From the NCBI RefSeq assembly GCF_900162685.1, contig NZ_LT727828.1, positions 1,049,678 to 1,113,677 of the forward strand: DNA of 64,000 nucleotides. The letters run 5' to 3'. The position numbers and the translations under genes were made by a program. Position 1 is the first letter of the stretch, and every line of letters starts with the position of its first letter. The stretch comes from Terribacillus halophilus (GTDB lineage Bacteria > Bacillota > Bacilli > Bacillales > Amphibacillaceae). The notes beneath the pieces are model-generated. The model made no database searches. It saw only the letters and a list, made by a program, of their open reading frames with translations, and was not told where the DNA came from. Positions 8,468 through 29,173 of this stretch are shown here, in pieces.

Positions 8468-8890
8468 AGAGATAAAAACAAAGAATCCAAACAATACTGC
8501 AATTAACAACAGCGTTGTTTGGATTTTTTTGCATCTGAAACGAAAGTGAGAGCATCGCTTCGGAAATACACTCCGCTTTCCTGCGGGCGGCTGGGGAGCC
8601 TCCTTGTGCAAAAAAACGCACTGCGGGGGTCTCCCCTAGCCTTCCTCCCGCGGGAGTCTCCGTGTATTTCCTACGCTGATTTGTGTGATAGGAAACCTTC
8701 ACTCGAATACGTAGACTCCTCGAAAAAGATAGCGATTTTCTTGTCGGTGTCTTACTTCAAGAGCTATTCTTGTCCAACGTTAACAGCAAGAGTTAGAGAG
8801 TCAGCAGCCGTCGGAGGACTGTATTAAAAAAGTAGGCATGTATGAATCGTTCGCTTTTAGGATGATTTAATCTTGTTTTATCCCAGGTTT
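8468..8890 (-). repeat. Dispersed intergenic repeat with terminal inverted repeats, copy 1
   Basis: Read on the minus strand, this stretch matches 28733-29173 over most of its length. Shared blocks include CCTGGGATAAAAC at one end, CTTGAAGTAAGACACCGACA, GCTATCTTTTTCGAGGAGTC, GGAAATACACGGAGACTCCC, GCCGCCCGCAGGAAAGCGGA and AATCCAAACAA. Within it GGAAATAC (8562) and GTATTTCC (8664) close a nested stem-loop containing GGGGAG/CTCCCC and GTGC/GCAC. It fills the gap between the stop of map (8466) and the stop of the convergent 53-aa gene (8895). The left terminus is degenerate. No coding role is seen. Confidence 0.85.
8484..8531 (+). terminator. Terminator-like hairpin after map
   Basis: AATCCAAACAA pairs with TTGTTTGGATT and is followed by TTTTTT. 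The same hairpin closes the second repeat copy at 29098-29142, so the repeat appears to carry its own terminator. Confidence 0.75.
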
Positions 8891-8894
8891 ATTT

Positions 8895-9056
8895 TTATGC
8901 TTCTTCCTGTTTCCACGTTGTCTCTTCGCCTTTTGTTGGGCAAACTGGGAATACTTCATTTGCTTTTATTTCAACTCTTTCGCCTGACTGGCAAGTATAA
9001 ACGCCTGTTTGCGGTACGCCTTGTCCGGTTCGGTATTCTCTTGTTTCATTACTCAC
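8895..9056 (-). CDS. Small conserved protein of 53 residues, YjzC-like pattern
   Basis: This short gene uses a GTG start at 9054-9056, six bases after GGGAGGTG, which is a strong start signal. The product has the pattern YRTGQGVPQTGVYTCQ (8-23) followed by VFPVCPTKG (36-44) and ends in Trp-Lys-rich residues. It resembles short Bacillaceae proteins of the YjzC/zinc-ribbon-like type with a TG..VP.TGVY.C start. Only two cysteines (C22 and C39) are present, so a full zinc-binding site is unlikely. It converges on map, separated by the repeat. Function is unknown. Confidence 0.7.
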   Translation of the reverse strand: MSNETREYRTGQGVPQTGVYTCQSGERVEIKANEVFPVCPTKGEETTWKQEEA

Positions 9057-9171
9057 CTTGTACACCTCCCGTGTTATAGCACTTATTCTAACCGTTCCCT
9101 TTGCTGCTTACTCTGAATCCTTGTGTAAGTAATAAAGAGCCTTGCATAGTGTAACAAGGCTTCCTCTTAAT

Positions 9172-10275
9172 TCATATTTTGTATCTCTTCAGCCACTTTA
9201 CAATGCGTTCACTAGTTCTGCCATCGCCATATGGATTTGCAGCCGCGGCCGTGCGTTGGTAGTAGGATTCATCCATTAGTAACGTATCTATCGCTTTCAT
9301 GATTGTTTGTTTTTCTGTACCTGCCAGGAGTAGTGTTCCGGCTTCTACACCTTCCGTTCTTTCCGTAGAAGAACGTATTACGATAACTGGCACATCGAAA
9401 GCGGGTGCTTCTTCCTGTATGCCGCCTGAGTCGGTAATGACCAAGTAGGCGTGTTTATACAGATGGATGAAGGAAGCGTAATCTACTGGGTCAATGATGT
9501 GTAAGCGGCTGTGAGCGTGTAAAAAGGAGTGCACTTGATTTCTTACATTTGGGTTAGGGTGTACGGGGAAAATCACTTCTACGTCTTCATAACGGTTGAT
9601 CATCTCATTTATTGCTTCGTAAATATACCGCATGCTTTTCATGTTCTCTCTTCGATGTGTAGTCAAAAGTATGAGCTTCCGCTCTGCGTTAATCACATGC
9701 TCCAGATCCTTTAAAGAGGAGGAGGTGTGCTTTTGTATGTAGAAAAGTGCATCAATAACTGGATTGCCGACTACGTGTATGTTGCTTGCTTCTATTCTTT
9801 CCTGAAGCAGGTTTTGTTTGTTTTGTTCGGTTGGAGCGAAATGGACTGCAGCAATTCGGGTTACAAGTTGCCGATACATCTCTTCGGGAAATGGTGTGTA
9901 CGGATTATACGTACGTAATCCAGCTTCTATATGCATGACAGGTATCTGAAGATGAAACGCAGCAAAGGCAGCGGCAAATGTAGTGGCTGTATCACCTACG
10001 ACAGCTATTAGATCTGGTTTTTCTGCTTTTAATGTGTCAGAGAGGACAGGGATTGCGGCAGCTATTACTTGTTCAGCTGATTGATTTGATTTCATGAGTG
10101 ACAGTTGATAATCTGGCTGGATGGAAAAGATTCTTAAAACGTCATCCAGCAGCTCGGTATGTTGTCCTGTGTGAATAACAAGTGAAGTGACATCTTGTTC
10201 TTCTTTAAGTTTGCTAATAATAGGGGCAAGCTTAATTCCTTCTGGACGAGTTCCTAATATAAATGCTACTTTCAT
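9172..10275 (-). CDS. UDP-N-acetylglucosamine 2-epimerase, non-hydrolysing
   Basis: This 367-residue GT-B fold enzyme interconverts UDP-GlcNAc and UDP-ManNAc for wall teichoic acid linkage units or other surface glycans. Family motifs: GTRPEGIKLAPII (8-20), GDTATT (94-99), HIEAGLRTYNPYTPFPEE (115-132), THRREN (206-211) and DSGGIQEEAPAF. It lies 14 bases downstream of a glycosyltransferase gene on the same strand, so the two are probably co-transcribed. It may be the housekeeping MnaA or a second copy dedicated to that glycosyltransferase; the window cannot decide. Confidence 0.9.
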   Translation of the reverse strand: MKVAFILGTRPEGIKLAPIISKLKEEQDVTSLVIHTGQHTELLDDVLRIFSIQPDYQLSLMKSNQSAEQVIAAAIPVLSDTLKAEKPDLIAVVGDTATTFAAAFAAFHLQIPVMHIEAGLRTYNPYTPFPEEMYRQLVTRIAAVHFAPTEQNKQNLLQERIEASNIHVVGNPVIDALFYIQKHTSSSLKDLEHVINAERKLILLTTHRRENMKSMRYIYEAINEMINRYEDVEVIFPVHPNPNVRNQVHSFLHAHSRLHIIDPVDYASFIHLYKHAYLVITDSGGIQEEAPAFDVPVIVIRSSTERTEGVEAGTLLLAGTEKQTIMKAIDTLLMDESYYQRTAAAANPYGDGRTSERIVKWLKRYKI

Positions 10276-10289
10276 ATGCTGCTCCTCAC

Positions 10290-11783
10290 TTAGCGAAGAT
10301 AGATTCTGGTAATAGTATCTCCTTCTGTTTTAAACTCCGGAATGCTTACATTGTCCCATGATTGAAGCATATACTGAACGACAGCTCGAATCTGACTACT
10401 GAGTAAGATCTTATCAGTATCATCATCGTATAATCTTTCATGATATAGTGTGGAATTGAGCCAATGGATTTTAAATGAATCGGCCATGCGGCAGAACATC
10501 ATATAATCTGCTGCCTTTAGTAAGTTTTCACCATTTATTTCTTCCTGCCATCCTCCTAGTTTATCTAGAGCAGACTTACGGTACATACGCGGACTAGGGC
10601 ATTGTACTTCGCTTAGCACGTGATACTTATCCGTATAATCTGGTCCGCTTAAAACCTCCCCTTCCTGTAACCCTGATGACGGATTATCGTACCAGGTTCT
10701 TCTGTTGGCATATAGTAAGCCATAGGATTTATCCAACTTTCCGAACGTGTCCAGCAGCATTTCAACTGCTTTTTCATCCAGCCAGTCATCTCCATCTAGT
10801 TCGAGTACATATTTTCCAAGCGCGTATCGTAAACCGACATTCAAAGCCTCTGCTTTCGTACCGTTTTTTATATGAAGCGGTATAATGCGCGGATCATTCA
10901 CACTTGTTATTTTCTGCAGCGTGTCATCTGTGGAACCAATATCAACGGCGACGATATGAAAATTGGAGTGGGTTTGTGCCAGTACACTGTTTAAGCATTT
11001 TTTAATATAAGCACCCTGATTTCGTGCTGTAATTAATATGGTAACATCAGGAATATCCTGTCTTTTTTTGCGGTGATCGAGGCTGGCGTTCATACTTTGC
11101 AAATATAACCCTTGCGGACCTGTAATGGTTGTGAGTGACAAAGCACCATTTACTCTGTATTCCATCAAAGGGTCGCGTATTAATTTAATTTCACCTAGTT
11201 CAAGCAGTCGAATCCAAAACTCGTAATCGGACACGACACCATAATCCAAATCATATCCGCCCGCTTTTTTATAAGCTGATTGCCGAAATAGAAAAGAAGC
11301 GCCTATAAAACAGATAGACATTATTTCTTCTTTATTGCGATTCATCAGCGTTTCCATGGTCCGTAACCATTGTTCTGCATCTGCAAAGCGCTGGCCTTCT
11401 TCGTTGATTAGCCAGTAGTAAGAATAAAGCAGGACAGTATCTTCAGGTGCGCGTTTCATATGATTATTGAGTGTGAGCAGAAATAGAGGGTTTTGCCGAT
11501 TATCGATTGAGATCCATGTAAGATATGGGCAATCTGTTAAATAAGAGAAACCTTCGTTTAAGGAATAAGAGATACCCAAATTTTTCTTTCGATGAATAAT
11601 CCGGTAAGGTATCGTTAAGCTACTGGAAGCTTTGTAAACAGCTTCAACAGTTTCTTGATTGGCCCCATCAATAACAATAATTAATTTAAAATCACGATAA
11701 ACCTGCTTTTCCACTGCTTCTATACATTCATAGACATACGCAGCTTGTTGATTGTATACGGGTAAGACAACTCCAATAGACAT
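10290..11783 (-). CDS. Tandem family 2 glycosyltransferase
   Basis: This 497-residue protein contains two GT-A domains. Domain 1 (about 1-235) starts GVVLPVYNQ, but its acceptor-metal motif is DNR at 94-96 rather than DxD. Domain 2 (about 245-497) has VTILITARNQG and a full DGDD at 330-333. No membrane segment is seen, so it is probably a cytosolic or peripheral enzyme building a surface polysaccharide with the downstream UDP-GlcNAc epimerase. Substrate is unknown. The ATG follows GTGAGGAGGCAGAAAG. Confidence 0.85.
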   Translation of the reverse strand: MSIGVVLPVYNQQAAYVYECIEAVEKQVYRDFKLIIVIDGANQETVEAVYKASSSLTIPYRIIHRKKNLGISYSLNEGFSYLTDCPYLTWISIDNRQNPLFLLTLNNHMKRAPEDTVLLYSYYWLINEEGQRFADAEQWLRTMETLMNRNKEEIMSICFIGASFLFRQSAYKKAGGYDLDYGVVSDYEFWIRLLELGEIKLIRDPLMEYRVNGALSLTTITGPQGLYLQSMNASLDHRKKRQDIPDVTILITARNQGAYIKKCLNSVLAQTHSNFHIVAVDIGSTDDTLQKITSVNDPRIIPLHIKNGTKAEALNVGLRYALGKYVLELDGDDWLDEKAVEMLLDTFGKLDKSYGLLYANRRTWYDNPSSGLQEGEVLSGPDYTDKYHVLSEVQCPSPRMYRKSALDKLGGWQEEINGENLLKAADYMMFCRMADSFKIHWLNSTLYHERLYDDDTDKILLSSQIRAVVQYMLQSWDNVSIPEFKTEGDTITRIYLR

Positions 11784-11897
11784 CTTTCTGCCTCCTCACA
11801 TATGAAAGTATGAAGAAAAACAGCAATTCATACTTTATCTGCTTATAAGTTTGTTTCGTTGTCTAAAATATTTTTGATGTGCTGTCACATATCTGCA

Positions 11898-11917
11898 AAA
11901 GCAAGCTGTCTTGCTTT
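11898..11917. other. Perfect 8-bp inverted repeat in a divergent promoter region
   Basis: AAAGCAAG CTGT CTTGCTTT lies in the 209-base divergent region between the glycosyltransferase and the DUF4440-like gene. No T-run follows on either strand, so an operator is more likely than a terminator. Binding protein unknown. Confidence 0.45.
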
Positions 11918-11992
11918 CTAAACAAGAGACATCAAGATACAATTAGATAATCGTTTAGTTTCAGTTTAGACCTCTATGTGAGGGAACGAAGA

Positions 11993-12628
11993 ATGGAGTG
12001 CAAAATAATGAGTCAAACAGTTATAACTTTAACAACAGGAGAAAAGATTTATACGGTTGCATCGGAAGAGCAGATTTTACAGCAAATCACCAACAACCAA
12101 GGGATGATGAACAAAGCTTTTGTTGTGATAGGGGATGTACATATTGCAACAGCACATATAGTAAAAATAGAAGGTCCTGAACAGAGACAGGAAGAACCGT
12201 TCCGTCTTCCGGAAAAGATAGAGCAAGCTGAAGAGATAAACGAGACAGTGCAAACAGAAGAAGAGAATAATCAAAACCAAATTGAATTGCTGGAGCAAGA
12301 GCTGCGAGAAGCGATGCAAACACGTGATATCTTTGCATTGGATACGCTTTTGCATGATGACCTTGTATTTGTTAATCATGAAGGAAGCTATATAACAAAA
12401 GAGATGGATTTAGAAGCACATCGGACACTTGCTGTACGTTTTACGAAAGTTTCTTGTTCAGATCTGCAAGTTAAACCAACGAAGGACGGGGCGGTAACCA
12501 TTTCTAAGATTCGTTTAGAGGGGCAAGAGAGGGAAGCGAAAATCGAAGGTGATTTCGTTTATACACGTGTGTGGCAGCTTATTGGTGAAGATTATCAAGT
12601 CATCACTGGTCATTGTACAAAGCTTTAA
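11993..12628 (+). CDS. Protein with small N-terminal domain and C-terminal DUF4440/NTF2-like domain
   Basis: The chosen ATG at 11993 follows GTGAGGG by eight bases and gives 211 residues. Residues 8-62 form a compact, mostly beta segment (ITLTTGEKIY ... FVVIGDVHIATAHIVKIE). A Glu/Gln-rich linker (about 62-98) leads to residues 98-211, which fit the DUF4440/SnoaL-like NTF2 fold (LEQELREAMQTRD, LLHDDLVFVNHEG, YTRVWQLIGEDYQVITGH). NTF2-like domains bind small molecules or act as enzymes; nothing identifies the ligand. No signal peptide. The N-terminal domain was not recognised. Confidence 0.75.
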   Translation: MECKIMSQTVITLTTGEKIYTVASEEQILQQITNNQGMMNKAFVVIGDVHIATAHIVKIEGPEQRQEEPFRLPEKIEQAEEINETVQTEEENNQNQIELLEQELREAMQTRDIFALDTLLHDDLVFVNHEGSYITKEMDLEAHRTLAVRFTKVSCSDLQVKPTKDGAVTISKIRLEGQEREAKIEGDFVYTRVWQLIGEDYQVITGHCTKL

Positions 12629-12694
12629 ATCATATCCATTGCTGCAAGCAGTGCATAAACTATAGGTGTCTGGCCTAACGGGTAAATAAGAGCA

Positions 12695-12722
12695 TTGTCA
12701 CGTATGTGAAATGTGGTATACA
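12695..12722 (+). promoter_or_regulatory. Promoter of murB
   Basis: TTGTCA (12695-12700), a 16-base spacer and TATACA (12717-12722), extended as TATACAAT. It lies 60 bases before the murB start. Confidence 0.6.
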
Positions 12723-12781
12723 ATAAAAGTTAGGGCACGCTCATATAGAAGCGGCTTAATACAGTTATGAGGGATTAAACG

Positions 12782-13705
12782 ATGAATGTAATGACATTGG
12801 AAAAAGACATAAAGCAACTTGTAGACGCGAAAGATGTTTTGATTGAAGCCCCGCTTGCTGATTACACGTACACCAAGGTGGGCGGTAAGGCAGATGTACT
12901 AGTATTTCCAAAAAGCTATACCGAAATAGAAAAAGTTGTTGCTTATACAAAAGAAAACAACATACCGTTAACGATTCTGGGAAACGCCTCAAATGTGATT
13001 ATTCAAGATGGCGGATTACGCGGAGTGGTCATGATTTTAACAGGACTAGATGAAGTGAAAGTGGAGGGGAACCGAATAATAGCCCAGTCTGGCGCAGCTA
13101 TTATTAACGTCAGCAGATTTGCTCATGATGCCAGTTTGACTGGTTTAGAATTTGCTTGTGGTATTCCAGGTTCCGTAGGCGGTGCATTGTACATGAATGC
13201 AGGTGCTTACGGCGGGGAAGTGAAAGATGTGCTGGAGCAAGTGGTGGTTATTACGGACGCAGGTGAACGAAAAGTGATGACGCGAGACGAATTGGAGCTC
13301 AGCTATCGCACAAGTATTTTGCAAAAAAATAACTTTATCGCTGTCGAAGCAACCTTCTTATTAACTGAAGGTGAGCAAACTGCAATTAAAGCTAAAATGG
13401 AGGAGCTTACGTATTTACGTGAATCCAAGCAGCCGCTCGAATATCCTTCCTGCGGCAGTGTCTTCCAGCGACCTCCTGGTCATTTTGCTGGAAAACTGAT
13501 CATGGATGCCGACCTGCAATTGACGCGTATTGGCGGAGTAGAAGTATCAGGTAAGCATGCTGGTTTTATGGTGAATGTGGATAATGGTACGGCGACAGAT
13601 TATATTAATTTGATTGGTCATGTACAAAAAACAGTAAAAGAAAAGTTTGGTGTTAGTTTACAGCGTGAAGTGCGGATTATTGGCGATACACCAGGACAAA
13701 AATAA
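12782..13705 (+). CDS. murB: UDP-N-acetylenolpyruvoylglucosamine reductase
   Basis: This 307-residue flavoenzyme reduces UDP-GlcNAc-enolpyruvate to UDP-MurNAc in peptidoglycan synthesis. The FAD domain has [10 protein letters not shown] and [19 protein letters not shown]; later motifs are [24 protein letters not shown] and [13 protein letters not shown], which supplies the catalytic serine. It is the short type IIa form usual in Firmicutes. It stands alone, with its own promoter and terminator. A second in-frame ATG occurs three codons later; the first is used because GAGGGA is eight bases upstream. Confidence 0.95.
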
Positions 13706-13708
13706 AAA

Positions 13709-13752
13709 AGAGAAGCTCATGGATTTCATTCCTTCTGTGAGCTTCTCTTTTT
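13709..13752 (+). terminator. Bidirectional terminator after murB
   Basis: AGAGAAGCTCA pairs with TGAGCTTCTCT, with A residues before and TTTTTA after the stem. It lies between convergent murB and the cation antiporter gene. Confidence 0.85.
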
Positions 13753-13753
13753 A

Positions 13754-14722
13754 TTAACCTGCAAAGATTAAATATCCCATTGTTCCAACGTAGCAGATAA
13801 CCACCAGCAAGCTGGGCAAGGAATAGGTAAGGGTTGAGCGAGATCGTTTACGCGTAAGAATTAACATGGCAATAACAGTCAGAACAAAGCCAATGATTGC
13901 GATAACCATGACATTGTTGCCCGTATCCTGCCAAATGCTTCCTTCTGTATATACGATATCGGCTATTGCGATAACCGCAATATTGAATAAGTTGCTTCCA
14001 AAGATTGTTCCCACGGCCAGATTGCTATTTCCCAGCTTCAGTGCAGTATAAACGCTTACTGCATCTGGCAGAGAAGTCGCAGCTGCAATTAAGATACTTC
14101 CGACAATAGTAGCGCTTATTCCAGTAGAAGCGGCTAGTGCATCACCAGAGATAGTTAAGACACTGCCGACAATGAGAATCATAACAGCGAATAAAAAGAA
14201 ACGGAACTTTGCTTGAGAAAGTGATTCTTTTTTTTCATGTGCTTCGTTTGGTTCCGTATCAATATTTTTCTTTGATGTAATATACATACCAACAACGTAA
14301 ATAATAACAATGATAAAGCTAGGTATACTGACATTAAATAAGGTATAGCTGTGGGTAACGGCTAATGCAGCAATGGCAGCGACACAAAGCGTTAAGGCAA
14401 TCGTACCTGTATAAAGATGCTGTTTGCTTACTTGCAAAAATAATCGTTTGCTGCGAAAATGCAGATCGAATAGAAACAAAACAAATAAGTTAAATAATAA
14501 ACTGCCAAGTCCGTTGCCGACAGCTATATCCGGATTATCAATAAGACCTGCGCTTAAAGTTGCAGTTAGTTCTGGTAAGGAAGTACCTACAGCGAGCAGA
14601 ACAGTACCAGTCAGAAAACCATTCATTTTGGATTTTCGGCTGATTGTATCGGCGTGGGTGGAAAGGTGGATTGCAGCATATACAGATAGCGCTGCAGTTA
14701 TAATGAATATGGCAGCTAGCAA
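13754..14722 (-). CDS. Sodium/calcium exchanger family (CaCA, YrbG-like) membrane protein
   Basis: The protein has about ten membrane segments and the two inverted alpha-repeats of the CaCA superfamily: AVGTSLPELTATLSAG with GNGLGSLLFNL in the first half, and AAATSLPDAVSVYTA with VGTIFGSNLFNI in the second. It should exchange Ca2+ or a related cation for Na+, K+ or H+ across the membrane. A TTG at 14720-14722 gives 322 residues, but no SD lies at a usable distance from it. AGGAAG is seven bases before an in-frame ATT at 14732-14734, which would add Met-Ser-Pro-Leu. No upstream ATG or GTG exists in frame. Confidence 0.88.
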   Translation of the reverse strand: MLAAIFIITAALSVYAAIHLSTHADTISRKSKMNGFLTGTVLLAVGTSLPELTATLSAGLIDNPDIAVGNGLGSLLFNLFVLFLFDLHFRSKRLFLQVSKQHLYTGTIALTLCVAAIAALAVTHSYTLFNVSIPSFIIVIIYVVGMYITSKKNIDTEPNEAHEKKESLSQAKFRFFLFAVMILIVGSVLTISGDALAASTGISATIVGSILIAAATSLPDAVSVYTALKLGNSNLAVGTIFGSNLFNIAVIAIADIVYTEGSIWQDTGNNVMVIAIIGFVLTVIAMLILTRKRSRSTLTYSLPSLLVVICYVGTMGYLIFAG

Positions 14723-14821
14723 TAGAGGTGAAATAGGTCATCTTCCTTTCTGCTAAAAAAGCATTCCACTTCTATTACCCTTTATAGGAGAACTATTAAC
14801 AAATCTTTTAGTTTCTTCATA

Positions 14822-14858
14822 AAAAGAAGGTCAGGACAATATGTCCTGACCTTCTTTC
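14822..14858 (-). terminator. Terminator of katA
   Basis: AAAGAAGGTCAGGACA pairs perfectly with TGTCCTGACCTTCTTT, with a T-run following on the minus strand. It begins only a few bases after the katA stop codon. Confidence 0.9.
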
Positions 14859-14860
14859 AA

Positions 14861-16315
14861 TTAGGCAGTTACAGTCGGAATGCTGATACCAAGTCCATCA
14901 GCAACGCGCTGTCCCCATTCTTTGTCCGCTTTGTAGATATGACCTACTTCGCGTTCAAGTATTTCTTTTCTTGTTACAGGTTTCATTGCATCAACGAAGT
15001 TTTGTACAAGACGTGTTTTTTCATCATCTGTCATAAGACGGTACAAATCTCCTGGCTGCGTGTAATGGTCGTTTTCATCATAACCAACGCTATCTGCTTC
15101 GCCGGAAACTTCAAATGGTGCAATTTTGCTTGCTGGATCTTCTTTCGGCCCGTTCAAGCTATTTGGCTCGTAATAAACGCCGCTGCCGCCATTGTTGTCA
15201 AAACGCATTTGGCCATCGCGCTGGTAGTTGTTTACTTCATTACGCGCACGGTTGATCGGAAGTGCTTGGTGGTTAGCACCTACACGATAACGATGAGCGT
15301 CATGGTAAGCGAACAAACGTCCTTGCAGCATTTTATCTGGTGATACATCAATACCAGGTACAAGTGTTCCCGGGGAGAATGTAGCTTGTTCTACTTCTGC
15401 AAAGTAGTTCTCTGGGTTGCGGTTCAATACCATACGGCCAACTTCAATTAGCGGGTAATCTTTTTGTGACCATACTTTTGTTACGTCGAATGGATCGAAG
15501 CGATATGTGTTCGCATCTTCCAACGGCATGATTTGCACGTATAGTTTCCACTCTGGGAAATCGCCATTCTCAATTGCGTTGAAAAGATCTTCTGTATGGT
15601 AGTCAGGATGCTCACCGGCAATCTTCGCCGCAACAGCAGGATCCATGTTTTTCACGCCTTGCTGTGTTTTGAAGTGATACTTCACCCAGTAACCTTCGCC
15701 TTTTTCGTTAACCCATTTGAATGTATGAGAGCCGAAACCATGCATATTACGCAATGTTGCCGGAATACCGCGGTCAGACATAAGAATTGATACTTGGTGC
15801 AAGCTCTCAGGAGAAAGAGACCAGAAATCCCATACTGCATCTGGATTTTTCAAATGTGTTTGCGGATGTCTTTTTTGTGTATGAATGAAATCAGGGAACT
15901 TGATTGCGTCGCGGATAAAGAATACAGGTGTATTGTTACCAACTAGATCATAGTTTCCTTCTTCTGTGTAGAATTTAACAGCGAAACCACGGGGGTCACG
16001 AACTGTATCAGCAGAACCTAGTTCACCAGCTACTGTAGAGAAGCGAATAAACATATCTGTTTTCTTCCCAACTTCAGAAAGAAAAGCTGCTTTTGTATAT
16101 TTAGAAACATCATTAGTGACTTCGAAGTAACCGTGTGCGCCAGCACCTTTCGCGTGTACAACACGTTCAGGAACACGTTCCCGGTTAAAGTGTGCTAGTT
16201 TTTCAAGTAGGTGTACGTCTTGAATCAGTGTCGGTCCACGAGATCCAGCGGTTAATGAATTCTGGTTATCTCCAACTGGAGCTCCCCAGCTAGTAGTTAA
16301 TCTTTTATCTGCCAA
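14861..16315 (-). CDS. katA: Vegetative haem catalase
   Basis: This 484-residue small-subunit (clade 3) catalase converts hydrogen peroxide to water and oxygen. Catalytic H54 lies in [12 protein letters not shown], the distal asparagine is N127 in LVGNNTP, and the proximal haem ligand is Y337 in [14 protein letters not shown]. The start is TTG at 16313-16315, preceded by GAGGTGA. It is a single-gene unit with a perfect PerR box upstream, so peroxide induction is strongly expected. Confidence 0.97.
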
Positions 16316-16357
16316 GAAAAATCACCTCAGAAATTAAGTAGTTTGTGAATCTATTTA

Positions 16358-16386: not shown

Positions 16387-16393
16387 TACTTAA

Positions 16394-16408: not shown

Positions 16409-16429
16409 ACTCGGTAGAATCATAGATTG

Positions 16430-16462: not shown

Positions 16463-16495
16463 CGTATTTCTATATGATATCGTTTGCATATTAGT

Positions 16496-21506: not shown

Positions 21507-21513
21507 TAAGAAG

Positions 21514-21542
21514 AAAGGTCCGCCATTTGGCGGACCTTTTGC
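21514..21542 (+). terminator. Bidirectional terminator between coat gene and tlp
   Basis: AAAGGTCCGCC ATTT GGCGGACCTTT, a perfect 11-bp stem flanked by A and T tracts. Confidence 0.9.
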
Positions 21543-21776: not shown

Positions 21777-21832
21777 AGAGATAAACCTCCTTTTCAAGCA
21801 GATACAAACTAGTATCCGCTATCTAAAAAAAG

Positions 21833-22567
21833 TTATGTATCTTTTAACTCCTTGTGATGAAATGGACATTTACCGAAATCTGGTTCAGCGTTGTCGCCAA
21901 TAAAATATTGCTTCCACTCCCGATGATCACGATCGCCGAAATGTCCGATATCAGGATGTTTTGGTAACTGGTCCCAATGTTCAACCCGCTCCCGAACCGA
22001 TCCTCTGGATTTTACGCCTGCTGGCTTATCACCTTCAAGACCATCGAAGATGCTGCGCGGCTGCAGACCAATGACAAGAGAGGGACCTAAGTCACGTGTA
22101 ATTCGCTGTTTATAAGCTGGGGTATTACCAAACAGAAAGTAAGCTTCTCCGCCAATGTGATAATCAAACAAAAAATGATCAGGGTCACGCGGGCGCTCAG
22201 CTGGCCAAGGAACATCATCGACCTCATGCAGCTGCTGAAGGAAACGCCAGAAATAATCTTGATAATAAGCTAGGTCTTGTTCTTGATTCTCAGGCTCAAA
22301 GAATAAAAACAATCCCCGCCGTACCTTCTTCTCCTGTGTGTGCATTAAATGAGTGAAATCATTGATAACGCCAAGTGCGCCTTCCCAATCATTATGAGGG
22401 ATGAATCCATAGCGCAGATCACCTTTTTTTTGAGCGGCAATACCAAAATAGCAAGGAAAGTCCTTTTTACTAACTGTTTCAGCAAAGGGCTGATAGGCGT
22501 CTAGTGCCCAGTCTGGAAGCTTTTTATTGTCAGCTTGAATATCATGTTTCTCAAACAGGGGTAACAT
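21833..22567 (-). CDS. YqcI/YcgG family protein
   Basis: This 244-residue soluble protein has the family features: FPCYFGIAAQKKGDLRYGF (about 38-56), the PxDPDHFLFDYHIGGEAYF-like centre, and a C-terminal CPFHH after DNAEPDFGK. The family is common in Bacillaceae and has no assigned activity; the Cys/His-rich end suggests metal or haem binding, which is inference. It is divergent from the Fur-controlled siderophore operon, so shared iron control is possible. Confidence 0.8.
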   Translation of the reverse strand: MLPLFEKHDIQADNKKLPDWALDAYQPFAETVSKKDFPCYFGIAAQKKGDLRYGFIPHNDWEGALGVINDFTHLMHTQEKKVRRGLFLFFEPENQEQDLAYYQDYFWRFLQQLHEVDDVPWPAERPRDPDHFLFDYHIGGEAYFLFGNTPAYKQRITRDLGPSLVIGLQPRSIFDGLEGDKPAGVKSRGSVRERVEHWDQLPKHPDIGHFGDRDHREWKQYFIGDNAEPDFGKCPFHHKELKDT

Positions 22568-22638
22568 ATGAACGCTCCTTTGTTTGTTAAAAAAATTGGC
22601 GGCGATATTGAAAAATTGAAACTATTCCCAATCACCTA

Positions 22639-22667
22639 TTGACGTGGATATTCTCATTCACTATACT
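22639..22667 (+). promoter_or_regulatory. Promoter of the siderophore ABC operon
   Basis: TTGACG (22639-22644), 17 bases, TATACT (22662-22667): a strong SigA promoter. An inverted repeat ATTCTCATT (22650-22658) / AATGAGAAT (22670-22678) overlaps it and could be a further Fur contact. Confidence 0.75.
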
Positions 22668-22683
22668 GTAATGAGAATCTAAT

Positions 22684-22698
22684 TGATAATGAATATCA
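22684..22698. promoter_or_regulatory. Fur box
   Basis: TGATAATGAATATCA differs from the 7-1-7 consensus TGATAATNATTATCA at one position. It lies just downstream of the predicted transcription start and 34 bases before the first permease gene, so bound Fur would block transcription. Confidence 0.8.
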
Positions 22699-22731
22699 GT
22701 ATCATCAATACTGCTGAAGAGGTTGTCGCGT

Positions 22732-23682
22732 ATGAAGTTAATATATTTAGTAATTGCTACCGTTCTATTAGCTGCTTGTTCCCTTTTTGTTGGTGTAGAA
22801 AACGTAACATTCACTGCACTTTGGAATATGGAAGCAGAAGCCTGGAATATCGTTATGATCAGCCGGCTGCCCCGAATGCTCAGTATTATAATGGCAGGGA
22901 TAAGTTTAGGGATTTGCGGTCTGATTATGCAGCAGCTAACTCAAAATAAATTTGTATCTCCCACAACAGCTGGAACGATGGACTGGGCAAGATTGGGTAT
23001 TCTCGTATCCTTGCTTTTCTTTACGGATGCAAGTCCAATTTTGAAGATGTGCATCGCTGCCGCTTTCGCACTGTTCGGCACGCTGCTGTTTATGGGGATT
23101 CTTCAAAGACTGAAGCAGAAGGATACCATTTTTATACCTTTGGTCGGTATTATGCTGGGGAATGTAGTCAGTTCCATCGCCACGTTCTTTGCACTTAAGT
23201 TCGACCTAGTACAGAACATGTCATCTTGGCTGCAAGGAGATTTCTCTTTGATTATGGAAGGGCGCTACGAACTATTATACATAAGTGTTCCGCTTCTCTT
23301 TCTTGCGTTCTTGTTCGCCAATATGTTCACTGTCGCTGGTATGGGAGAAGACTTTGCTACCAATTTAGGGCTGCCTTACAAGTATGTGGTGAATGTAGGA
23401 TTAATTATCGTGGCAATCATTACATCAGTAGTCATCCTGACTGTGGGCACGATTCCGTTTCTCGGATTGATTGTACCGAATATCGTCAGCATGTACCGCG
23501 GTGATCATTTGAAAAAGAGCATTTGGCATACCGGGGTTCTCGGGGCTTTATTCTTGCTCGTATGTGATATCGCAGGGCGCATCATTATCTATCCATACGA
23601 AATCTCTGTTGGGTTAATGGTAGGGGTTATCGGAACAGGTATCTTCCTTTATATGCTGCTGAGGAGGAACACCTATGCTTAA
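22732..23682 (+). CDS. Iron-siderophore ABC transporter permease (YclN/FatD type)
   Basis: The ATG at 22732 follows GAAGAGG and gives 316 residues with about nine membrane segments. The FecCD-family motif is seen in RLPRMLSIIMAGISLGICGLIMQ (about 45-67, shown in parts: RLPRMLSIIMAG), and the ATPase-contact region in GTIPFLGLIVPNIVSM. The product pairs with the next permease to form a heterodimeric channel. Operon order permease-permease-ATPase-binding protein equals B. subtilis yclNOPQ, which imports petrobactin-type catecholate siderophores; the substrate is inferred. Confidence 0.92.
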   Translation: MKLIYLVIATVLLAACSLFVGVENVTFTALWNMEAEAWNIVMISRLPRMLSIIMAGISLGICGLIMQQLTQNKFVSPTTAGTMDWARLGILVSLLFFTDASPILKMCIAAAFALFGTLLFMGILQRLKQKDTIFIPLVGIMLGNVVSSIATFFALKFDLVQNMSSWLQGDFSLIMEGRYELLYISVPLLFLAFLFANMFTVAGMGEDFATNLGLPYKYVVNVGLIIVAIITSVVILTVGTIPFLGLIVPNIVSMYRGDHLKKSIWHTGVLGALFLLVCDIAGRIIIYPYEISVGLMVGVIGTGIFLYMLLRRNTYA

Positions 23683-24625
23683 GCGTAAGATTATTATTCT
23701 AACCCTTGTCGCTTTGTTATTGGCCGGTCTGTACTTATTTATCCATATGAACTTCCAAGCAATGGAATATCTGCTGCGAACACGACTTGAGAAAATTTTG
23801 GCTATGGTTTTATGCGCAGTCTCTATCGGTCTTTCAACCGTTGTCTTCCAGACGTTAACGCATAATCGGATTTTAACACCTAGTATTATGGGACTTGATA
23901 GTGTTTATATGTTTATCCAGACAATCGTAGTGTTCCTATTTGGAACAGGAACATTTGTCATTATGCAGAGTGATGCGTATTTCTTCCTTACTATTCTGCT
24001 TATGGTCGGGTTTGCTTTTGGGCTTTATCAGCTGTTGTTCCGCAAAGGGCACAATAATTTATTCTTGCTCTTGCTCGTCGGTCTTGTGCTAGGTACATTT
24101 TTCGGCAGTTTATCCTCATTCATGCAGATGATTATCGACCCGAATGAATTTCTATTAATACAAGATAAGATGTTTGCCAGCTTTACGAACGTGAATACCG
24201 ATTTACTGCTTCTTTCAACCGTTATCATTGCAGTGTTATGTGTATACATATTCCGTTATCGTCACTATTTTGATGTCATGTCAATCGGCAGAGATCATGC
24301 AGTGAACTTAGGTGTACCGTATGAAAAGATTGTCAAACGAATGTTTCTTGTTATTGCTGTGCTGGTAGCTGTTTCGACAGCTTTAGTGGGGCCGATTACA
24401 TTCCTCGGTCTGCTGACGGCGAACTTAGCCCGTGAGTTTCTGCAGACATTCCGGCACACGTATCTGCTGGCAGCAGCAAGTTTACTCAGTATCATTGCTT
24501 TACTCGGCGGACAGCTGATTGTGGAAAGGGTGTTCTCCTTTTCAACACCGATTAGCGTCATTATCAATTTTGTCGGCGGAGTATACTTCATTTATCTACT
24601 AATAAAGGAGAGTAAAAAGATATGA
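23675..24625 (+). CDS. Iron-siderophore ABC transporter permease (YclO/FatC type)
   Basis: The second FecCD-family permease has 316 residues and overlaps the first by eight bases. Motifs include RLEKILAMVLCAVSIGLS, LTHNRILTPSIMGLDS and, near the C-terminus, GPITFLGLLTANLARE, the coupling-helix region. About nine membrane segments. It must work with the product of the preceding gene and the ATPase that follows. Confidence 0.92.
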   Translation: MLKRKIIILTLVALLLAGLYLFIHMNFQAMEYLLRTRLEKILAMVLCAVSIGLSTVVFQTLTHNRILTPSIMGLDSVYMFIQTIVVFLFGTGTFVIMQSDAYFFLTILLMVGFAFGLYQLLFRKGHNNLFLLLLVGLVLGTFFGSLSSFMQMIIDPNEFLLIQDKMFASFTNVNTDLLLLSTVIIAVLCVYIFRYRHYFDVMSIGRDHAVNLGVPYEKIVKRMFLVIAVLVAVSTALVGPITFLGLLTANLAREFLQTFRHTYLLAAASLLSIIALLGGQLIVERVFSFSTPISVIINFVGGVYFIYLLIKESKKI

Positions 24626-25377
24626 TCGTAGCAGAAAAGCTTTCCAAATATTTTGGTTCTAAAAAAGTAATACAAGATGTATCTGTAGAGGTGCAGCGTG
24701 GTGCAATCACTTCTTTTATTGGACCGAATGGAGCGGGGAAAAGTACGTTGCTTTCTATGGTCAGTCGTCTGTTGAAGCAAGATGATGGTATTGTCTACCT
24801 AGATGGTAAGAACGTACATAAACAAAAGAGCAAGGATTTAGCCAAGACGATTGCTATTCTCCGACAATCAAATGTAGTACAAATGAAACTGTCCGTCCGG
24901 GAGTTAGTCAGCTTCGGCCGATTTCCTTATTCAAGCGGAAAGTTGACAGAGGAAGATGAACAGAAGATTAGTGAAGCAATCGCTTATGTGAATCTTGAAG
25001 AATTGGAAGATAAGTATCTAAATGAGCTGAGTGGCGGTCAGAGGCAGCGCGCATTCATCGCGATGGTCCTGGCGCAGGATACAGATTATATTCTGCTGGA
25101 TGAACCACTTAATAATTTGGATATGAAGCATGCAGTCCAAATGATGAAACTGCTCCGGAAATTAGTCGAAGATTTCGGTAAGACAATCCTGCTTGTTATT
25201 CATGACATCAATTTTGCTTCTGTTTATTCAGATCGGATCGTGGCGATGAAAGATGGCAGTATTGTAGCGGAGGGTCCAACCGACGACATTATTCAGTCAG
25301 ATGTTTTGAAGTCTATCTATGATTTGGATATAGACGTGCACAATATAAGCTGTAATCGAATTTGTGTTTATTTCTAA
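24622..25377 (+). CDS. Iron-siderophore ABC transporter ATPase (YclP type)
   Basis: This 251-residue ABC ATPase has Walker A GPNGAGKST (about 34-42), signature LSGGQRQR and Walker B DYILLDEPLNNLD, in the FepC/FhuC subfamily. It overlaps the previous gene by four bases. It powers the two permeases. GGAGAG precedes the ATG inside the end of the permease gene. Confidence 0.94.
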   Translation: MIVAEKLSKYFGSKKVIQDVSVEVQRGAITSFIGPNGAGKSTLLSMVSRLLKQDDGIVYLDGKNVHKQKSKDLAKTIAILRQSNVVQMKLSVRELVSFGRFPYSSGKLTEEDEQKISEAIAYVNLEELEDKYLNELSGGQRQRAFIAMVLAQDTDYILLDEPLNNLDMKHAVQMMKLLRKLVEDFGKTILLVIHDINFASVYSDRIVAMKDGSIVAEGPTDDIIQSDVLKSIYDLDIDVHNISCNRICVYF

Positions 25378-25407
25378 TCAATTGATAGGTAAAGGGGTGA
25401 TGCCGTT

Positions 25408-25473
25408 ATGAAGCTAGCAGTCTTACTTAACCAGAAATGCATCCACTACATACAAAAAGGAGAAGATATATAA
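25408..25473 (+). CDS. Possible 21-codon leader peptide before the siderophore-binding protein
   Basis: An ATG at 25408-25410, seven bases after GGGGTGATG, opens 21 codons (MKLAVLLNQK ...). The stop TAA overlaps the ATG of the binding-protein gene (TAATG), and the last codons contain that gene's SD AAAGGAGAAG. This suits translational coupling. No homologue is known and the ORF could be chance; moderate to low confidence. Confidence 0.35.
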   Translation: MKLAVLLNQKCIHYIQKGEDI

Positions 25474-26414
25474 TGAAGAAACTAACATTGTTAATGACTG
25501 GTCTATTGTTTGTCTTGCTGCTTGCAGCATGCGGAAGTAACTCGGATACTGCAAGCGGTGCAGATAATAAAGAAGAAAAGCTGACAATCGAGCATGAACT
25601 CGGTACAACAGAAGTTGCGAAAAATCCAGAAAAGATTGTAACATTCGATATGGGAGCATTGGATACATTGGATCAGCTAGGTGTGGATGTAACGGGTGTT
25701 CCACAGCAAAATCTGCCGGATTATCTATCTAAATACAGCGGCAGTGACTATGAGAATGTTGGTGGCTTAAAAGAACCAGACTTAGAAAAAATAGCAGAAA
25801 TTAACCCAGATGTTATCTTCATCTCTGGTCGTCAAAGTGATTACTACGAGCAGCTTAGTGAGCTGGCTCCGACAATATTTATCGGAATTGATACAACAGA
25901 TTACATGAATTCATTTAAGAAGAATACAGAAACGATTGCACAAATTGTCGGGAAAGAAGAAGAAGCTGAAACTGCACTAACTGAAGTGGATGATGCGATT
26001 GCGGACCTAAAGGCGAAAGCGGAAAGCACAGATGGTAAAGCGTTAATTACGCTTGTTAATGACGGTAGTGTCAGTGCGTACGGCAAGGAATCTCGTTTCG
26101 GTGTGATTCACGATGTTTATGGTGTGCCGACAGTAGACGAAACAATTGAATCTTCTACGCATGGTCAGTCTGTAGGTTTTGAGTATATTTCTGAGAAGAA
26201 TCCAGATTACCTATTTGTTGTAGACCGCGGAGCAGTTGTAGGTAAAGGTGCATCATCTGCTGAAAAAGTATTGGATAATGAGTTGGTTAATGGTACAACA
26301 GCAGCGAAAGAAAACCAAATTACGTACTTAGATCCAGGATACTGGTATCTATCAGGCGGTGGTTTGGAATCTGAAATGGAAAAAGTAAAAGAAATCTCCG
26401 ATGCTTTGAAATAA
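25473..26414 (+). CDS. Siderophore-binding lipoprotein (YclQ type)
   Basis: Starting at ATG 25473 the product has 313 residues, a lipoprotein signal peptide with lipobox LAAC (C20), a polar Ser/Asp linker and a periplasmic-binding class III fold (KIVTFDMGALDTLDQLGV; PDLEKIAEINPDVIFISGRQ). It captures an iron-siderophore at the membrane surface for the upstream permeases. By similarity with YclQ the ligand may be a catecholate such as petrobactin; this is inference. No siderophore biosynthesis genes are in the window, so it may serve xenosiderophore uptake. Confidence 0.92.
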   Translation: MKKLTLLMTGLLFVLLLAACGSNSDTASGADNKEEKLTIEHELGTTEVAKNPEKIVTFDMGALDTLDQLGVDVTGVPQQNLPDYLSKYSGSDYENVGGLKEPDLEKIAEINPDVIFISGRQSDYYEQLSELAPTIFIGIDTTDYMNSFKKNTETIAQIVGKEEEAETALTEVDDAIADLKAKAESTDGKALITLVNDGSVSAYGKESRFGVIHDVYGVPTVDETIESSTHGQSVGFEYISEKNPDYLFVVDRGAVVGKGASSAEKVLDNELVNGTTAAKENQITYLDPGYWYLSGGGLESEMEKVKEISDALK

Positions 26415-26421
26415 GACAAGC

Positions 26422-26459
26422 AAAAGAGCGCAAATGCAATCGCATTTGCGCTCTTTTTT
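26422..26459 (+). terminator. Bidirectional terminator after the siderophore operon
   Basis: AAAAGAGCGCAAATGC AATC GCATTTGCGCTCTTTT: a perfect 16-bp stem followed by further T. It ends at the stop of the convergent nos gene. Confidence 0.92.
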
Positions 26460-27526
26460 CAATAAGCATCGTCTTGATAGAAATAATTTGGTTTAACAAT
26501 TTTATTTGAATAAGGTTTGTGGAAAATATGAGTCGCGGCTGGCGACATTGGCGGAATAAGCCAACTCCACATTCCTGTCACATCACGTCCGGCTTTTTGT
26601 TCTTGTTTCTCAAAGTGGGCAAATTGCTTTGCAGCTGTATGGTGATCAACAATCGTGACACCTGCATATTGAAAGGATTGCAGAACAGCAATATTCAATT
26701 CAACTAAAGCACGGTCTTTCCATAGCGAAGAAGCTCGTGCTTGATCAAGATGGAGAAGTTCCGCTACTTTTGGAAGCATATTATACCGGTCTTCATCTGC
26801 TAAATTTCGTGCCCCAATCTCTGTTCCCATATACCAGCCGTTGAAAGGTGCTGCGTTATAGGTGATGCCTCCAATTTCCAGTTTCATATCTGACACAATC
26901 GGAACTGCATACCAACGCATATCAAGCTCTTTAAAAGCTGGATAAGCTTCATGTTCGATTTTAACTTCTTTTACAATCGAAACTGGTATTTCCTTTAATA
27001 CAGGCTTTTGATCACCAACTTGTACAACGAGCGGGAGCATGTCAAAAGCCGTTCCTTTTCCTTCCCAGCCGAGATTTCTGCATATAGAGGTAAATCGTAT
27101 AGAAGCTGGATCTCCGACAATTCCATTTTCTGTTTCATATCCGGCATAGCGGAGTAATTGATGATTCCATATCCGAATGTTTGCATTTGGAGAGAATATG
27201 GTGATCATCGGCTGAACTTTTCCATTATTCGTTGCTTGTTCAATGTGCTGAAACAGCTGTTCTATGATTTGGTTTGTATCCGTTATATGACGAGCATCTT
27301 GAACATGAAGACCATTCCAGAACAACCGGCCGATACAACGATTTGAATTTCGCCAAGCCATTCTCGCTCCATGTTCCAGTTCTTCTATTGTATGGGAATA
27401 GGTAGAGGTTGCTTGTATCTCTTGTTTAATTTCTGACAAACGCATGTGTATTGCCTGACTTGATTTGCCGAGTTCTTCGTAGCTCTCTTGGATAAAAGCT
27501 GCTGCTTCTTCAAATAATGTCTGCAT
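26459..27526 (-). CDS. nos: Nitric oxide synthase, oxygenase only (bNOS)
   Basis: This 355-residue protein matches bacterial NOS oxygenase domains, which make NO and citrulline from arginine with electrons from host reductases. Haem-ligating C64 lies in [14 protein letters not shown]. The arginine-binding Glu is in [16 protein letters not shown], and the pterin region is at [17 protein letters not shown]. No reductase domain is attached, as usual in Bacillus. AGGAGG is eight bases before the ATG. Known roles in Bacillus are protection against oxidative stress and antibiotics. Confidence 0.95.
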
Positions 27527-27663
27527 AGGCTGCTGCCTCCTTATTCAGCAAGTAGTATAGCATGAGACTGGTAAATAGATGCTTTTTGGAGAAAATTGTA
27601 GAAAAAGGTTCATAGATTGATGTTTTCAGCCGATAGTATATAAGAGGGGAAAGGGGAGCGATT

Positions 27664-28728
27664 ATGAATAAACGACTTTTAGTAAGTATGTTAAGTGCAG
27701 GATATCTATATGCTGTTTTTTTGTTTTTACAAAATGAAAGGGTTTTCTTGTTGGGTTTGTGGGTGAATCTGATTATTGGTCTTCTCTTAGCAGGGGGAAG
27801 TGCTGCAATTTTACTTTTACATAGAAGGAACTCGCCAGAAGAACTACCAACAGTTATTGCTGATGAGCCAATACAGGATGAGATAGCATCGGCACTCGAA
27901 CCTGTTATCGAAACGGCAGACAATACGGAAGCTTCTCTATTAGAGAAAACGAAAGATTCATTGCATCAAATTGTAACTGCTTTAGAGGAGGTTACAATCG
28001 GATCAGAGAACCAGTCTCATTCCTCTGCTGAACTGGCAGCAGCGATGCAGAAGTTTGCTGAGAATATTATGATGGTAGCGTTAAAAGGGGAAGATGCAAA
28101 ACGAGTTGCTGCTGAAATGCATGTATTAACAAAAGAAGGAGCTTCCCATATGGAAGACTCTGTTCTTCATATGAATACGATAGCTGATAAGATTACCTTT
28201 TCTTTTGAAAGGGTGAGAGGATTGAATGGCAAAACAGATCAAATTAGCACGTTACTAAAATCAATTAAGGAAATTGCAGAACAGACGAATTTATTAGCTT
28301 TGAATGCCGCTATCGAAGCAGCGCGTGCAGGGGACCAAGGACGCGGATTCGCTGTAGTGGCGGATGAAGTGCGTAAGTTATCTGATCAAGTTCGGGTTGC
28401 TGTGGCTGATATTACTAGTGTGTTTCAAGCCATTCAGACAGAATCCAAAGCTGCAGTCGATGCGCTGGGGGAAGGTAATAACGCAGCAGCAGCTGGATCT
28501 GAAAAAATAGTAACAACACAACGAACATTTGCGGAGCTGCAAAAAGAGATTCTTATCACAAGTGAGCAGGTTGAGGAGATAGCTGCGGCAATGTACGACG
28601 TACTTGATAATACGCGTGGTATAACAGACAGCATTAACAGTATCGTATCTGTCGCTGAACAGAATGCTGCCAGTATGCAAGAAGTTACTGCAATAACTCA
28701 AGATATACAGCAGAAGTTTTATAAGTAA
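27664..28728 (+). CDS. Short methyl-accepting chemotaxis-like transducer
   Basis: This 354-residue protein has two membrane segments close together (about 5-23 and 28-53) with almost no extracellular loop, then a coiled-coil cytoplasmic region with the MCP hairpin tip [20 protein letters not shown] (204-223) and [13 protein letters not shown] (228-240). It lacks an extracellular ligand domain and a HAMP domain, so it may sense the membrane, redox state or an internal signal. It is divergent from nos, with 137 bases between them. GGGGAGCGATT precedes the ATG. Confidence 0.85.
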
Positions 28729-28732
28729 TATA

Positions 28733-29173
28733 AGAGACTGGGACAAAACGAGATTAATTTAGAATAAAAGCGAACGTTTAATACATCATACTTTTACTTA
28801 ATTTCTCTAACGGCTGCTGCCTCTCCAACATTAGCTGTTATAGTCGGACAAGAATGGCTTTTGAAGTAGACACCGACAAGAAAATCGCTATCTTTTTCGA
28901 GGAGTCTACGTATTCTGCCTACACGAGTGAAGGTTTCCCATCACACAAATCAGCGTAGGAAATACACGGAGACTCCCGCGGGAAAAAGACCTCGGTGAGA
29001 CCCCGAGTGCTACAGCATGAGAAGGCTCACCAGCCGCCCGCAGGAAAGCGGAGGGTATTTCCGAAGCGATGCTCTCATCTTCGTTTCCAATGCAAAAAAT
29101 CCAAACAATTCTGCAGTTAATTGCAGTATTGTTTGGATTTTTATATAGCTTAAACTGTTTTGTCCCGCTCTCT
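28733..29173 (+). repeat. Dispersed intergenic repeat with terminal inverted repeats, copy 2
   Basis: This 441-bp element starts AGAGACTGGGACAAAAC and ends GTTTTGTCCCGCTCTCT, so its ends are inverted repeats. The interior matches the minus strand of 8468-8890. A nested stem is formed by GGAAATAC (28958-28965)/GTATTTCC (29055-29062), GCGGG/CCCGC, GGTGAG (28994-28999)/CTCACC (29026-29031) and TGCT/AGCA at the tip. A terminator-like hairpin (AATCCAAACAA ... TTGTTTGGATT) is near the right end. It begins 5 bases after the chemoreceptor stop and ends 5 bases before the convergent symporter stop. Confidence 0.88.
29098..29145. terminator. Terminator-like hairpin inside repeat copy 2
   Basis: AATCCAAACAATTCTGCA pairs with TGCAGTATTGTTTGGATT (one bulge), followed by TTTTA on the plus strand and preceded by AAAAAA, which gives a T-run on the minus strand. 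It can end transcripts from both flanking convergent genes. Confidence 0.75.

Follow-up and report, generated by a model that had tools for sequence, protein, structure and literature searches.

Two intergenic stretches of related sequence lie in opposite orientation within the window, the 64,000-nt stretch of the Terribacillus halophilus genome that was analyzed. Both contain a nested stem-loop with paired changes between the copies, which raises the question of whether this structure is an RNA under selection in the host or a part of something that moves. The first-pass annotation had taken the paired changes as a sign of selection on RNA (or cruciform DNA) structure. The evidence presented here indicates that the repeated unit of approximately 441 bp is very probably a miniature inverted-repeat transposable element (MITE) of the IS1182/IS1272 type that replaces terminator hairpins, and that the nested hairpin travels in it as a passenger.

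Both copies were found at the annotated positions and orientations, and a BLAST comparison gave 83% identity across positions 6-410 of copy 2. The anatomy of the two copies, their flanks and a further element in the window are as follows.

28733..29173, plus strand: copy 2, a complete non-autonomous element of ~441 bp; relatives have a short hairpin at this site
27664-28728 (plus) and 29178-30773 (minus): convergent reading frames flanking copy 2, which lies between their stop codons
28734..28749, plus strand: left terminal inverted repeat of copy 2, GAGACTGGGACAAAAC, of the type found at the ends of IS1182-family elements
28901..28922, minus strand: remnant of copy 2's second hairpin module, which is inverted (start of the GGCAGAATAC subtype)
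28952..29069, plus strand: core hairpin module of copy 2, the nested stem-loop annotated earlier (covariance model R1, 114.4 bits)
29094..29142, no strand assigned: internal terminator-like hairpin of copy 2, with A-run, long stem and T-run, readable both ways
29157..29172, plus strand: right terminal inverted repeat of copy 2, GTTTTGTCCCGCTCTC
8468..8890, minus strand: copy 1, between the plus-strand frame 7726-8466, which by eye we take to be methionine aminopeptidase-like, and a short minus-strand frame ending at 8895 (by eye)
8875..8890, minus strand: left terminal inverted repeat of copy 1, AAACCTGGGATAAAAC; its right counterpart has been lost
8705..8719, minus strand: the inverted hairpin module of copy 1, reduced to a shortened remnant
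8555..8677, minus strand: core hairpin module of copy 1 (covariance model R1, 116.2 bits)
8482..8530, no strand assigned: internal terminator-like hairpin of copy 1
41565..41738, minus strand: a different element of ~175 bp, whose terminal repeats are of the same kind and which has an internal hairpin of its own; the related genome G002 has a longer version at this site

The inverted remnant of copy 2 is the reverse complement of the modules at two further loci, L194 and L195, in 22 of 22 bases. Open reading frames of at least 60 codons overlapping the two copies encode 67-122 amino acids, and a transposase would need about 570, for which an element of ~441 bp is too short; it therefore contains no transposase gene.

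A search of the same genome with copy 2 as query yielded 86 alignments, which were merged by eye into 40 places, fragments counted; as 40 of 75 candidates were scored, the family occupies at least 40 places. The internal terminator-like hairpin is kept in 35 of these 40 copies. The core hairpin module is whole in 19, nearly all of which have GTAG at the hairpin foot, and shortened or missing in the remaining 21, with deletion ends that vary and, judged by eye, resemble slippage between short direct repeats. Regarding their placement, 21 copies lie between convergent genes, 18 between tandem genes and one between divergent genes. The corresponding baseline, taken from stretches of G002 alone with reading frames from a crude caller, comprises 78 convergent, 247 tandem and 98 divergent gaps among 423 intergenic regions, so that copies are over-represented between convergent genes (p = 5e-6) and under-represented between divergent ones (p = 9e-4).

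Mobility was assessed by looking for empty sites in related strains, as had been proposed at annotation. For 20 of the 40 copies both flanks could be placed in two 400-kb stretches of G002, the other 20 not being placeable there. At 14 of these 20 sites G002 has a short hairpin of unrelated sequence in place of the element, three sites carry an element and three are complex. All 14 hairpins reach -12 kcal/mol, compared with 145 of 1000 length-matched segments drawn at random from all positions and hence mostly coding; one of the hairpins (at L018) is imperfect, and at L016 and L022 the flanks lie further apart in G002 (86 and 128 bp). Among the genus genomes compared, copy 2 is specific to its own, and a hairpin follows the same gene in all nine others, four of them anchored by both flanks and five by the left flank only. 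At the site of copy 1 a hairpin is found in G002 and G007 and an element in a third relative, G003, for which reason the history of this copy may be shared or repeated. The empty sites of relatives show that the element stands in place of hairpins, and the state in the relatives together with the unrelated sequences of the replaced hairpins suggests that the change ran from hairpin to element. Members of a second hairpin subtype (L193-L195) have G002 counterparts occupied by other elements or remnants.

The terminal repeats point to the enzyme that may have been responsible. The left end GAGAGCGGGACAAAAC, present in several copies, agrees in 16 of 16 positions with the left end of an intact insertion sequence (IS) in G003, the product of which is an IS1182-family transposase (NF033551, 420.8 bits at a cut-off of 270) with 15 matches in G003 when used as protein query. 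Read inwards, the right end is GAGGCTGGGACATAAC, a sequence that is matched exactly at 11 places in the own genome and that equals, again in 16 of 16 positions, the left end of a G005 IS. The autonomous G003 IS has seven distinct copies, one of which had a placeable site in G002; there G002 has a terminator-like hairpin. Neither the PF13751 profile nor the G003 protein query detected an IS1182 transposase in the own genome (G000), and inspection by eye revealed no direct repeats flanking the element that would indicate target duplication. With a matching transposase present in G003 and none found in G000, the copies would have moved in trans in the past, and they are probably immobile now.

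Taken together, we propose that an IS1182-family (IS1272-like) DDE transposase moves the ~441-bp MITE in trans to terminator-like hairpins of no fixed sequence, and that the target hairpin would be lost as the element takes over the site, without target duplication. Stem-loop-replacing transposition has published precedent in PMC5678879 and PMC4923244, and the chemistry suggested here follows the IS1272 model by analogy. The element's own two-way terminator-like hairpin near the right end would give the genes on either side a terminator again and so make the swap tolerable, as its anatomy, retention and placement suggest. The nested hairpin of ~118 nt would be a passenger module with its own, Bacilli-wide history, presumably maintained because selection within the mobile lineage acts on a foldable form of the DNA (or RNA) and not because the host needs it, and now being lost in the own genome.

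What the nested hairpin itself is demands a closer look at its pairing. The annotated outer stem GGAAATAC/GTATTTCC is present in both copies, with an A/G mismatch in the lower part in copy 2, and so are both versions of the middle stem, GGTGAG/CTCACC in copy 2 and GGGGAG/CTCCCC in copy 1. The tip reads GTGC/GCAC in copy 1, as annotated, and GTGC/GCAT in copy 2, where TGCT/AGCA had been given; as the 5' side is GTGC in both copies, the proposed change is partly a register shift. The middle stem is fully paired in five of the 19 full-length hairpins (L001, L002, L010, L017, L036) and has an unpaired position in the other 14, e.g. GGTTAG or GGGGAG against CTCACC, so the contrast between copies 1 and 2 is weak evidence when taken alone. 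At the level of the family covariation is well supported: across 99 sequences, two-sided changes occur in 24 of the 31 pairs, and the 191 cells with such changes compare with a mean of 28.5 in shuffles, none of 500 of which reached the observed value. An alternative helix (columns 26-31 with 55-60) performed no better than shuffles. When genera are compared, some of the best-conserved columns lie in unpaired segments, GGAAAGC being one of these.

The hairpin is a module separate from the ~441-bp element. Of 299 Bacilli genomes sampled, 76 contain it, and several genomes have tens of similar copies each; this spread agrees with the first-pass annotation, which describes repeats of this type as common in Bacillaceae. 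Inside IS1182-type ends it occurs in the own genus as well as in G014, G030, G035 and G635. Inverted module pairs were observed at 29 of 122 loci, with uniform orientation in 30 of 30 neighbouring pairs; one of 76 classified loci lies between divergent genes, and at tandem genes the module is on the strand of the gene in 32 of 55 cases, i.e. without clear strand preference. The foot of the hairpin varies between GTAG, GGAG, GAAG and GCAG, the last three outside the own genome. Neither copy matched an Rfam family at gathering score when the whole window was searched, and at E-values up to 1 loci L001-L003 gave three matches far below gathering scores, none of them relevant. Plasmid sequences contained no match to the full element; a core from G007 as query matched three Priestia megaterium plasmid records. 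Phage sequences gave no match. The open-licence literature, searched for the motif and for such Bacilli repeats, yielded no description among the papers listed.

Strong covariation, invariant unpaired segments and a wide distribution in Bacilli would all suit a functional host RNA, acting as a 3' UTR or small-RNA element with its structure under host selection. Wobble pairs also outnumber A-C cells by 44:18 in an alignment of more distant sequences that had been fitted to the model, and by 80:11 on alignment A2 with the RNAalifold structure, mostly owing to one column pair; with the structure used here, however, the ratio on A2 is 29:26, no clear wobble excess, compared with 27:10 for a SAM riboswitch control, a difference that is not significant (p = 0.08). 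The selection proposed at annotation is not supported as selection for a host RNA, since the structure sits in a mobile unit, more than half of the copies in the own genome have shortened or lost it with varied deletion ends, and 14 of 19 full hairpins have an unpaired position in the middle stem. The tens of alike copies per genome in several genomes and the lack of a clear strand preference at tandem genes also speak against it, and what most copies keep is the separate terminator-like hairpin and not the core. We consider a host RNA very unlikely. Template switching within the palindrome at replication could instead create compensatory changes without selection, and the few wobble cells (29 of 3022) beside the 191 two-sided changes fit this, as do the slippage-like deletions in that hairpin. 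The conservation of unpaired segments across genera, though, is not something that mutation by itself would produce, and the unrepaired middle-stem mismatches in most full copies also count against template switching, which we regard as unlikely.

A classical REP/REPIN moved by a RAYT of the Y1 family would account for many intergenic copies, for their near-absence between divergent genes, for inverted doublets of a single orientation and for the GTAG foot of nearly all full copies in the own genome. Against this stand a module of ~118 nt instead of 20-40, the variable foot elsewhere, where REPs have a conserved GTAG or GTGG, the lack of a Y1 match (PF01797) in the module-bearing genomes G000, G002, G003, G023 and G034, and the finding that none of 30 Y1 loci has the module within its flanks (up to ~1.5 kb). 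PF01797 covers RAYTs only partly, according to PMC6006769, so a divergent RAYT could have been missed; even so, we regard a classical REPIN as unlikely. A more speculative reading, to which we give somewhat less than even odds, would place the ~118-nt hairpin in a REPIN-like family, widespread in Bacilli, that travels in inverted doublets with the help of enzymes other than Y1/RAYT and was repeatedly captured by terminator-replacing IS1182-type ends, which brought it to gene ends.

EFAR is a small, folded, intergenic element with terminal repeats. The ~441-bp element resembles MITEs of the EFAR/Bcr1 type in these respects, a likeness by description with no claim of family identity; EFAR, Bcr1 and other Gram-positive MITEs are named in PMC3733652. 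The closest parallels are IS1272 and TnSha1 of the IS1182 family, as described in PMC5678879 and PMC4923244: these share terminal repeats of ~16 bp, an IS1182-family transposase (here in relatives), targets that are hairpins or terminators without common sequence, loss of the target hairpin and lack of target duplication. In contrast, the unit described here is gene-less, 441 bp long and present in many copies in another Bacilli family, carries an internal terminator-like hairpin together with a second hairpin module as passenger, and has no transposase detected in its host genome. With REPINs and BIMEs, as outlined in PMC3116915 and PMC6006769, the module shares numerous intergenic hairpins and inverted doublets of fixed orientation, but its nested hairpin is unbranched and ~118 nt long, against 20-40 in those elements; with PF01797 no linked RAYT was detected, and several genomes that carry the module gave no match at all. 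Bhal-1 of Bacillus halodurans, a stem-loop family of 74 bp with 36 copies in the table of PMC2267715, is likewise intergenic, structured and from a related host; judged by description, it could be a fragment of the ~118-nt module.

These results explain a repeat that is met in Bacilli genomes and named by none of the libraries searched, and they carry stem-loop-replacing transposition beyond staphylococcal elements to one that has no genes. The module with its strong covariation poses a testable question, namely which enzyme handles it. Furthermore, an element that itself bears a terminator-like hairpin has displaced 14 or more such hairpins in one genome, which amounts to a natural experiment in terminator exchange.

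The positions given in the first-pass annotation for two inverted copies of an approximately 441-bp gene-less element proved correct, as did their mutual orientation. Searching the own genome (G000) with copy 2 gave 86 alignments, collapsed by eye to 40 places with fragments counted in, a minimum, as scoring covered 40 of the 75 candidates. Among the aligned copies listed, the terminal inverted repeats read GAGnCyGGGACAAAAC (left) and GTTATGTCCCAGCCTC (right), the flanks are A-rich on the left and T-rich on the right, no target duplication was detected by eye, and a conserved left half is followed by the nested hairpin (the module, about 118 nt) and a second hairpin, AAAAAATCCAAACAAT...ATTGTTTGGATTTTT. 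The unit is a miniature inverted-repeat element (MITE) of a known kind, the IS1182/IS1272 type, with its own terminator-like hairpin and a passenger hairpin.

Features of the window and of related loci
8468-8890 (-): copy 1 of the 441-bp unit
28733-29173 (+): copy 2 of the 441-bp unit
41565-41738 (-): different element of ~175 bp whose ends read GAGACTGGGACAGAAC and which contains a strong hairpin; the corresponding G002 site has a longer version
7205-7570: tmRNA, ordinary Rfam match
49953-50054: SAM riboswitch, ordinary Rfam match
L292:155-2003: autonomous IS of G003; A-stem-T hairpins (A- and T-runs) adjoin both ends
L289:1379-3346: one IS1182-type element of G018, module between transposase gene and right end
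L193, L194, L195 (own genome, C13:567904, 855865, 889143): second module subtype, not part of the 441-bp element; its outer stem is GGCAGAATAC

A comparison with related strains, as suggested in the first-pass annotation, revealed what relatives have at the sites of the element. For each of the 40 copies the flanks were mapped onto two 400-kb stretches of G002, one of nine other genomes of the genus (G001-G009), and both were placed for 20. At 14 of these (L001, L003, L012, L013, L014, L016, L017, L018, L019, L021, L022, L027, L029, L035) G002 carries a short hairpin at the position of the element; three others hold an element in G002 (L030, L034, L038) and three are complex (L002, L006, L025). 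At 12 of the 14 hairpin sites the aligned flanks lie 22-59 bp apart, at L016 86 bp and at L022 128 bp, and the hairpin sequence varies between sites, that of L018 being imperfect. A best 42-nt window of -12 kcal/mol or lower was found in all 14, compared with 145 of 1000 matched-length segments from random positions, coding included. At the site of copy 2, all nine other genomes, searched together with the own one, have a hairpin: GCGACC/GGTCGC where both flanks were anchored (G002, G003, G006, G008) and GCGGCC-type where the left flank alone was (G001, G004, G005, G007, G009). At the site of copy 1, the hairpin GGTGCAGAG/CTCTGCACC stands in G002 and a weaker hairpin in G007, and G003 carries an element of this kind there; in G005 the upstream sequence of copy 1 is followed by a hairpin, but at a different place, and the site was unreadable in G001, G004, G006, G008 and G009. 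Stem-loop-replacing transposition is reported for IS1272 and TnSha1 (PMC5678879, PMC4923244), and the exchange of hairpin for element seen here is of the type described there.

Following the terminal repeats of the unit led to transposases of the IS1182 family in relatives. Of 41 genomes, 21 contain PF13751 matches; G003 accounts for 16 of these matches, and both the own genome and G002 have none. The autonomous IS of G003 (1849 bp, start GAGAGCGGGACAAAAC, end GTTATGTCCCGCTCTC) encodes a protein matching NF033551 (IS1182 family; 420.8 bits, cut-off 270) as well as PF13751, PF01609 and PF05598. Of six genomes searched with this protein, G000, G007 and G023 gave no match, G002 a fragment of 45 residues, G034 a single match and G003 15. 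Both IS ends occur in eight rows representing seven distinct copies, all from G003, among 14 loci examined; one of the seven could be placed in G002, which has a terminator-like hairpin at that position. Because A-stem-T hairpins lie by the ends of the G003 element, terminator carriage may be a general trait of IS1182-type elements.

By flanking frames (simple ORF caller, at least 120 aa), 21 of the 40 copies are convergent, 18 tandem and one divergent, against a baseline of 78, 247 and 98 among 423 intergenic gaps in the G002 stretches. The internal terminator-like hairpin near the right end is retained in 35 of 40 copies by a pattern test and shows paired changes, e.g. ATCCAAAC/GTTTGGAT versus ATCAAAAC/GTTTTGAT. 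Judged from sequence, placement and retention fit a unit that would remove one putative terminator and supply another. In L011 and L033 the same foreign sequence (GGGGACTGACCCCATAC...) interrupts this hairpin, as if another element likewise prefers hairpins.

The module also occurs outside the unit. Copy 2 matched in 38 of 61 genomes and, outside G000, G002 and G003, the matches listed mostly cover query positions ~217-338, the hairpin. With a covariance model the own genome yields 37 matches, one being the antisense of another; under stricter filters the model matches 3 of 299 genomes sampled across the phylum and 76 of 299 sampled across the class, each sample including the own genome. Within the unit, the hairpin is retained at 90 bits or more in 19 of 40 copies, with the middle stem fully paired in five and not in 14; by eye, deletion ends vary among copies, some sharing short direct repeats. 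The G002 counterparts of the sites of the second subtype hold other elements or remnants. On the Priestia megaterium plasmids NZ_CP069400.1 and NZ_CP069405.1, genes annotated as 'hypothetical protein' overlap the module, perhaps a spurious annotation.

From 118 gathered hairpins, 114 were aligned (duplicates L010, L134, L172 and truncated L143 left out) and 99 chosen for alignment A2, with truncated or shuffled L016, L025, L032 and L111 excluded by name and copies thinned to nine for G000 and to five plus L041 for G003. The covariation claimed from the two copies was borne out at family level, with two-sided changes in 24 of 31 pairs of a five-helix structure. This structure, set from the same consensus on which it was then tested, is paired in 97.5% of 3022 cells, falling to 36-49% when partners are slid by 1-3 columns; two-sided changes number 191 cells versus 28.5 in shuffles, counts inflated by sequence kinship. 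Distant matches covary too, in an alignment fitted to the model. Regarding an RNA or DNA form, A2 contains 29 wobble versus 26 A-C pairs among the 3022 cells, whereas the RNAalifold structure gives 80 versus 11, largely owing to a single column pair left unpaired in the five-helix structure, and the model-fitted distant alignment 44 versus 18. A SAM riboswitch control, built from 28 distinct rows at 29 of 30 retrieved loci after omission of one at a contig edge, shows 27 versus 10, which compared with 29 versus 26 gives p = 0.08, short of significance.

In a survey of 44 + 78 loci, with antisense matches on the same hairpin omitted, 30 neighbouring module pairs within 600 bp were found in 29 of 122 loci. 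All 30 share one divergent arrangement, with a spacing of 22-295 bp, and in 23 both modules reach at least 45 bits; the doublets are not independent, since several loci come from one genome. A 22-bp remnant of such an inverted partner module survives in the 441-bp element itself, in its left half. Inverted doublets of this layout are those of REPINs (PMC3116915). The REP-associated tyrosine transposase Y1 (PF01797) was not found in several module-bearing genomes; the module occurs at none of 30 fetched Y1 loci and at three of 30 fetched PF13751 loci (L279, L281, L289).

Units of ~250 bp in G014, G030 and G035, and one copy read in G635, enclose the module between terminal repeats of the same kind as those of the 441-bp unit. 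In G018, another module lies ~100 bp beyond the left end of the IS1182-type element of L289. No IS1182-type ends were seen within ~110 columns on each side of the module in G010, G022, G023, G031 and G032, and in G019 the module-bearing units (L056, L166-L168) carry other ends, GGTCATGTCCGAATAATTGTG / CACAATTCCGGACATAACC. Module and IS1182-type ends thus seem to have had histories of their own, with frequent encounters. The passenger hairpin is a REPIN-like family widespread in Bacilli; of the two, MITE and passenger, the passenger is the more interesting.
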